A program made the position numbers and the translations under genes. Shown here piece by piece: positions 4,460-4,594 of a stretch of DNA of 64,000 bases. The stretch's first letter is position 1. Every line of letters begins with the position of its first letter. Below the pieces are notes generated by a model that searched no databases, was not told the origin of the DNA, and saw only the letters and a list, made by a program, of their open reading frames with translations. Origin of the DNA: Tetracentron sinense (Eukaryota > Streptophyta > Magnoliopsida > Trochodendrales > Trochodendraceae); assembly GCA_015143295.1 (NCBI GenBank), contig CM026565.1, positions 12,522,041 through 12,586,040 of the forward strand, read 5' to 3'.

Positions 4460-4594
4460 GTACATTTAATTGTACTTTAGTCAATTAAAATATTGTTCTG
4501 AGGCTATGTGTGTGATATTAAATGTTATGTGGTATGATGTAAGATGCATGTATGTATTCATGATTTGACAAATTAGCTTTGTGTATTAATTCAG
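4460..4594 (+). other. Candidate gag-pol intron, element A (135 nt)
   Basis: GTACATTT...TTAATTCAG. Removing it joins ...DDVVQ-G to SLLINDFLAHVLIDTG in one frame with phase 1. Exon 1 (3256-4459) plus exon 2 (4595-7914) gives 4524 nt, exactly 1508 codons including the stop. The unspliced frame has stops inside the segment. The same arrangement is found in C, J, K and L with different intron lengths. Confidence 0.75.

Follow-up and report, generated by a model that had tools for sequence, protein, structure and literature searches.

Most groups of plant long terminal repeat (LTR) retrotransposons carry a single open reading frame (ORF) and some carry two, including Bianca and Ogre, where a further region lies between the two ORFs; in Ogre this region is an intron that is spliced from a subset of the transcripts (accessible sections of PMC6317226). 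Ogre and EVADE have been described as exceptions among plant elements that are generally intronless, with BARE1 also named in this connection (PMC12786077, in the part available), and a further account deals with BARE1 and also refers to CRR and Bagy2 (excerpts of PMC3735527). The chromoviruses of sugar beet are reported to have a single ORF (PMC3605345, accessible text), and the available portion of PMC3059260 mentions neither an intron nor splicing. It is often unclear how plant LTR retrotransposons, which mostly encode Gag-Pol in one ORF, make more Gag than Pol. Here we describe a segment that separates gag from the protease region in a chromovirus of Tetracentron sinense, based upon a stretch of 64,000 nucleotides (nt) from contig CM026565.1 (positions 12,522,041 to 12,586,040; referred to below as the window) and upon copies elsewhere in the same genome. 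With a probability that we place at about 0.9, this segment is a spliceosomal GT-AG intron, in phase 1 at the gag/protease boundary of a high-copy element, whose unspliced RNA would encode Gag and serve as the usual template for reverse transcription and whose spliced RNA would encode Gag-Pol.

In Ogre, a Ty3/gypsy element of the Tat group from pea and Medicago, the intron likewise lies between two polyprotein ORFs and the spliced RNA encodes the whole polyprotein (PMC6317226, in part). However, the Ogre intron is found between the PROT and reverse transcriptase (RT) ORFs, whereas the segment described here, which is 124–168 nt long, precedes the protease. The Ty1/copia elements BARE1 and EVADE also have an intron near the end of gag, with distinct RNAs for Gag only and for Gag-Pol, but their logic is reversed, as the spliced form encodes Gag and the unspliced form Gag-Pol, whereas here Gag would come from the unspliced RNA (available parts of PMC3735527 and PMC12786077). 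Transcripts of CRR of rice are spliced, as is proposed here; however, this removes rt and creates two ORFs, whereas only a noncoding stretch would be removed in the present elements (PMC3735527, in part). The single-ORF chromoviruses of sugar beet, melon, citrus, grape and other plants share the domain order of our elements and have a continuous VVxG-TL junction (PMC3605345, accessible text, for sugar beet). They are without an intron at the gag/protease boundary, although part of them are gene models from which an intron could have been annotated away case by case. Element J of the window has the gag-protease-RT-RNase H-integrase order and the C-terminal chromodomain by which Ty3/gypsy chromoviruses are recognised. 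We take CRR to be a chromovirus and the Ogre/Tat elements to be non-chromoviral, lacking the chromodomain that is found in J. We infer that the intron was gained separately from that of Ogre; very probably it is a real, spliced intron in a different lineage, and it would work in the manner of the Ogre intron without being Ogre. If this is true, the logic of Ogre has been reached by a second lineage of Ty3/gypsy elements. No report of a chromovirus intron at the gag/protease boundary was found in the open-licence literature, subscription journals being mostly outside the scope of this search, and to that extent the suggestion that the position is undescribed still stands.

Each of the five complete segments in the window (elements A, C, J, K, and L) starts with GTAC and ends with (T/C)TCAG, is flanked by VVQ-G and G(T/S)LL, interrupts the frame in phase 1 and contains internal stops, and all of these features, as well as the coordinates and lengths (Table 1), agree with the original prediction. 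The junction divides the G codon of ...DDVVQ-G/G(T/S)LL. The window segments are rich in T (40–43%) and have a GC content of 0.27–0.35, as compared to 0.42–0.62 in their flanks. The anatomy was also studied in 47 distinct intron-bearing copies, those from the window included. All 47 start with GTAC (43 with GTACG[CT] and 4 with GTACAT) and all end with CAG before G; the introns have T and C fractions of 0.43 and 0.10, and the T fraction is 0.20 in the upstream and 0.36 in the downstream flank (n = 47). Their lengths are independent of multiples of three and, if the segment is retained, the frame meets a stop after 3–14 codons in 42 of the 47 copies. A branch-like YTRAY site is present near the 3' end in 42/47 copies, compared with 20 ± 3.2 in shuffled sequences, the sampled copies being mutually related. 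The interior of the intron differs between subfamilies to a near-random degree (p 0.47–0.56, against 0.55 for shuffled introns) while the GTAC and CAG ends are kept; among C/K/L members, and likewise among J members, the interior distance is 0.20–0.27. Codon-position distances, unreliable for pairs with indels (K in particular), were left aside. Among the sampled A-type introns (n = 25), 21 begin with GTACGT and four, including the window copy, with GTACAT. At position 4464 of the window element A thus has A at +5 where most A-type copies have G, a change that fits CpG decay and would make for a weaker splice site.

The segment is not confined to the window. In the host genome (1.16 Gb), where the junctions were sought as exact degenerate patterns, the 5' junction was matched 6046 times (reversed-pattern control, 0) and there were 3911 matches to the 3' junction (control, 4), numbers that are far beyond chance. 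A 30-mer from the A-type intron start had 275 matches at ≤3 mismatches. At the protein level, the coding sequence on both sides of the segment is continuous in related elements. Among the best 120 of the 7942 matches to the J pol sequence, 107 run without a gap from VVxG-TL to the protease motif, and in the remaining 13 the region is absent or the pattern unmatched. The continuous relatives are proteins of melon, citrus, spurge and elm or from metagenomes, with grape examples as well. Many of them are gene models, in which annotation might conceal an intron in single cases, but the proteins from metagenome contigs are also continuous, and the DNA reads through the junction in all three loci of other families that were read in the same genome (L114–L116). 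The ungapped relatives and these other-family loci indicate that the segment has been inserted precisely within coding sequence that would be contiguous without it.

A few other sequences touch upon this junction. When viral_contigs was scanned once with the gag sequence of K, no relative was found. A gag protein from a 942-bp metagenome contig (P0121) has 56% identity over 56% of K gag and leaves the frame right after VVQGT; it may carry the same intron in a sister element of another species, but this indication from sequence is weak and has not been counted. Several gag gene models of other plants (P0124, P0127, P0129, P0134, P0140, and P0145) are broken at or near the junction, which may reflect annotation splits or introns, and one metagenome-contig protein (P0024) begins right at it.

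The evidence that carries most weight comes from copies in which the segment is precisely absent. A 35-base empty-site pattern was found at 108 places when ≤3 mismatches were allowed and at 60 with none (control, 0), and 100 of the 108 places were listed; some of the weakest of the 108 are intron-bearing and matched by chance. For the comparison of copies, eleven of 108 loci, intron-bearing ones among them, were left unclassified by the first script and were left out: four (L017, L073, L075, and L080) have introns of 134–148 nt with slightly different flanks, and the other seven (L065, L066, L067, L069, L072, L079, and L083) are without a recognised 3' end in the scanned stretch, perhaps due to longer introns, insertions or diverged flanks. 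After removal of five duplicate loci, 47 intron-bearing and 50 intronless copies remained, the latter read from 50 of the 60 exact places. In a test where the flanks could lie 0–12 nt apart (13 spacings), the spacing predicted for a splice junction was found in 27/27 C-type, 12/12 J-type, and 8/8 GTC-type copies, i.e., in 47/47. The intron is the only indel within about 2 kb in five of the eight pairs of intronless and intron-bearing copies that were compared; for example, L042 differs from the J element of the window at 37 of 2000 flanking bases and the missing 138 nt are the only indel.

One of the intronless loci, L045, is a complete LTR element with TG...CA ends, a duplicated 5-bp target (ACTAG) on either side, and LTRs that show 51 mismatches in 2489 aligned columns. 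The sequence TGGTATCAAAGC, which resembles a primer site, follows its 5' LTR; we take it to be of the initiator-Met type. The frame is open across the junction, with at least 350 gag and at least 450 pol codons, in 11 of the 50 intronless copies, and several have single frames near 1500 codons. The complete L045 element and the open frames fit a spliced RNA that was copied and then integrated in the way that is normal for the element.

In a tree of the 97 copies (47 intron-bearing and 50 intronless) based upon 440+440 nt of flanking sequence, the intronless copies are spread over several subfamilies. If losses are one-way, the tree requires 31 of them before and 19 after the collapse of weak nodes. 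Without the four deepest intronless copies these numbers fall to 16, or 9 at a node support of 0.95, and when only the 28 intronless copies lying ≤10% from a sampled intron-bearing copy are kept, nine losses are needed, or six at 0.95. Seventeen of the 50 lie within 5% of such a copy. Apart from those of the A-type, the sampled intron-bearing copies were drawn only from contig C1 and the window. Both the anatomy of the intron and its exact removal nested within the family are direct observations on the DNA. The GT-AG ends, the T-rich composition, the ungapped relatives and, above all, the many copies with exact loss, a good part of them nested, make it very probable that the segment is real and is a spliceosomal intron, and the corresponding claim of the original prediction is upheld, with the A-type (0 exact losses against 444 intron-bearing copies) as a reservation.

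The C-type comprises 1989 intron-bearing and 27 intronless copies, so that the usual template would be the unspliced RNA, as had been proposed earlier. Copies with and without the intron are both present in the genome, and an Ogre-like mode, in which part of the transcripts are spliced, may apply here. Under the mechanism that we propose, translation of the unspliced RNA would yield a Gag that terminates after the first few codons of the intron, and this RNA would be the form that is normally packaged and reverse-transcribed, while removal of the intron would give an RNA encoding the Gag-Pol fusion. Occasionally the spliced RNA would be reverse-transcribed, giving an intronless copy with an exact empty junction. 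The assignment of Gag to the unspliced and Gag-Pol to the spliced form follows from the reading frames, as was suggested before, with the products themselves deduced from DNA. We similarly infer, from sequence, removal by splicing, the control of the Gag:Gag-Pol ratio and the packaging preference; splicing probably sets the amount of enzyme relative to shell protein. A probable splicing switch is visible in thousands of chromovirus copies; those that have naturally lost the intron provide evidence of splicing from within the family, and the question can be addressed by ordinary RNA work.

Other explanations of the segment and its losses have to be considered. The intronless copies could be due to microhomology-mediated DNA deletion between the AGG at both ends (CAAGGTAC ... 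CAGG), with a product as in splicing. The sampled C-, J-, and GTC-type copies have these three bases at either end, and a single deletion there would give the same product as splicing; the A-type, in which the deletion product would be one base off the spliced one, is without exact-loss copies. However, the exactness of all 47 junctions in three subfamilies, when random end-joining should leave other remnants within the 0–12 nt searched, and the lack of any other indel within ~2 kb in 5/8 pairs make such deletions very improbable. Although two-ORF layouts with recoding are established among LTR elements, it is scarcely credible that the segment is a frameshift or readthrough element, or an untranslated spacer preceding a Pol that is initiated internally, as its length is not bound to the frame, stops lie inside it, its interior is near-random between subfamilies while GTAC and CAG persist, the relatives are ungapped at the junction and exact removal is recurrent. 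The stops and the lengths led us to reject both a recoding signal and readthrough, in accordance with the earlier statement that readthrough cannot serve. The original prediction had also pointed to intronless relatives as the place where a frameshift signal or a deletion scar might become apparent; the exact removals within the clade and the ungapped outgroups favour an intron instead.

It is also conceivable that the intronless form is ancestral and the intron was inserted repeatedly, or that recombination with an ancient line devoid of the intron has disseminated the intronless copies. The related families in the same genome are intronless here (three loci read) and the intronless copies cluster to a degree, but it is unlikely that an intron should repeatedly enter each subfamily at one and the same base, recombination too requires a donor with matching flanks, and the match of L042 to J across 1 kb on each side leaves little space for a recombinant tract; we consider this history improbable. 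A further proposal accepts that the intron is spliced and assigns to it a role in RNA export or in escape from silencing rather than in the Gag:Gag-Pol ratio. In other plant elements splicing affects cell location and silencing (EVADE; PMC8892269, accessible part). However, the site lies exactly between gag and protease and, in most copies, Gag would terminate directly after entering a retained intron, while the two roles could coexist, and an export or silencing role in place of the ratio is unlikely, though it deserves to be kept in mind.

The interpretation as a spliced intron that serves as a Gag/Gag-Pol switch has several observations to contend with. It is drawn from DNA sequence. A strict YTRAY site is absent from the J-type introns, five of the 47 copies have unspliced tails of 36–172 codons, and the early stops in the other copies are weak evidence, as these are expected in any T-rich DNA. 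The nearest sampled copy is also intronless for 41 of the 50 intronless copies, 22 of the 50 are >10% from any sampled intron-bearing copy (these being sampled thinly), and the intronless copies cluster on the tree (Fitch score 15, compared with 32.6 for shuffles). The four deepest of them (L099, L090, L029, and L030) could represent old intronless lines. The clustering indicates that some intronless copies go back to a common loss, to local duplication or to recombination. Lastly, no exact-loss copy of the A-type, the subfamily of element A, was found in the genome by the search with 0–12 nt spacing, as compared to 444 intron-bearing copies, while about six would be expected at the C-type share. 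The empty-site list contains two A-like places with other downstream bases, and in the one that was read (L099) the flank is very distantly related or not related at all.

It may be that splicing is less frequent in the A-type or that its spliced RNA is better barred from reverse transcription, as far as can be judged from the copy counts. The share of intronless copies provides a gauge of the preference for unspliced RNA in reverse transcription. Some intronless copies have a single open frame of ~1500 codons, and intronless copies remain rare. We lean towards the view that this chromovirus, separately from Ogre, gained the gag/protease intron as a Gag/Gag-Pol switch, that the intronless copies are a fossil record of leakage of spliced RNA (~1.3% of the C-type), that exclusion is tighter in the A-type, and that the rarity of intronless copies reflects a fitness cost of losing the switch.

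In several pairs of intronless copies (L046/L047, L029/L030, L049/L050, L054/L055, and L058/L089), the two members are separated by no more than about 0.3 Mb on one chromosome, and these may be local segmental duplicates.

The features of the window are summarized in Table 1. The 5' side of the junction is gag according to Pfam in A, J, K, and L, and the 3' side in J contains RVP_2, RVT_1, RT_RNaseH, Integrase_H2C2, SH3_Tf2-1, and Chromo. The Chromo score is 26.9 in J, against a cut-off of 25.1, and 21.2, below the cut-off, in C. The long LTRs would agree with the Tekay/Del clade of chromoviruses, to which the lineage may belong. The earlier observation that the coding lengths of A and J become exact codon multiples carries little weight, as further in-frame stops are present in each of the five copies (A, 3403 and 6097; C, 20992 and 22206; J, 51043, in gag; K, 55719; L, 61237 and 62102).

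Table 1. Positions of the introns and of the associated coding regions and LTRs in the window.
Feature	Positions	Strand	Remarks
gag/protease intron, element A	4460..4594	+	135 nt, GTACAT...ATTCAG; near-identical introns at other A-type loci
Intron, element C	21485..21624	+	140 nt
Intron, element J	50746..50883	-	138 nt
Intron, element K	55830..55971	-	142 nt
Intron, element L	61292..61439	+	148 nt
Intron 5' part, sixth copy H	45380..45443	+	cut ~64 nt after start by LTR of inserted J
Element A gag 3' part	3406..4459	+	Retrotrans_gag; frame ends ...VVQ-G; upstream in-frame stop 3403
Element A protease, reverse transcriptase, RNase H start	4595..6096	+	open until stop 6097
Element J gag	50884..52162	-	Retrotrans_gag, zinc knuckle; one in-frame stop, 51043
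Element J pol	47414..50745	-	protease, RT, RNase H, integrase, chromodomain; open
Element K gag	55972..57256	-	open; zinc knuckle
Element A 5' LTR	760..2955	+	99% identity to partner; target duplication CAAGT
Element A 3' LTR	7958..10155	+	
Element J LTR	45444..47160	-	7 mismatches plus gaps relative to partner
Element J partner LTR	52466..54172	-	

Element J sits within the intron of H, a copy of the same lineage (45380–45444), and its far end adjoins an assembly gap (N at 54176–54275).
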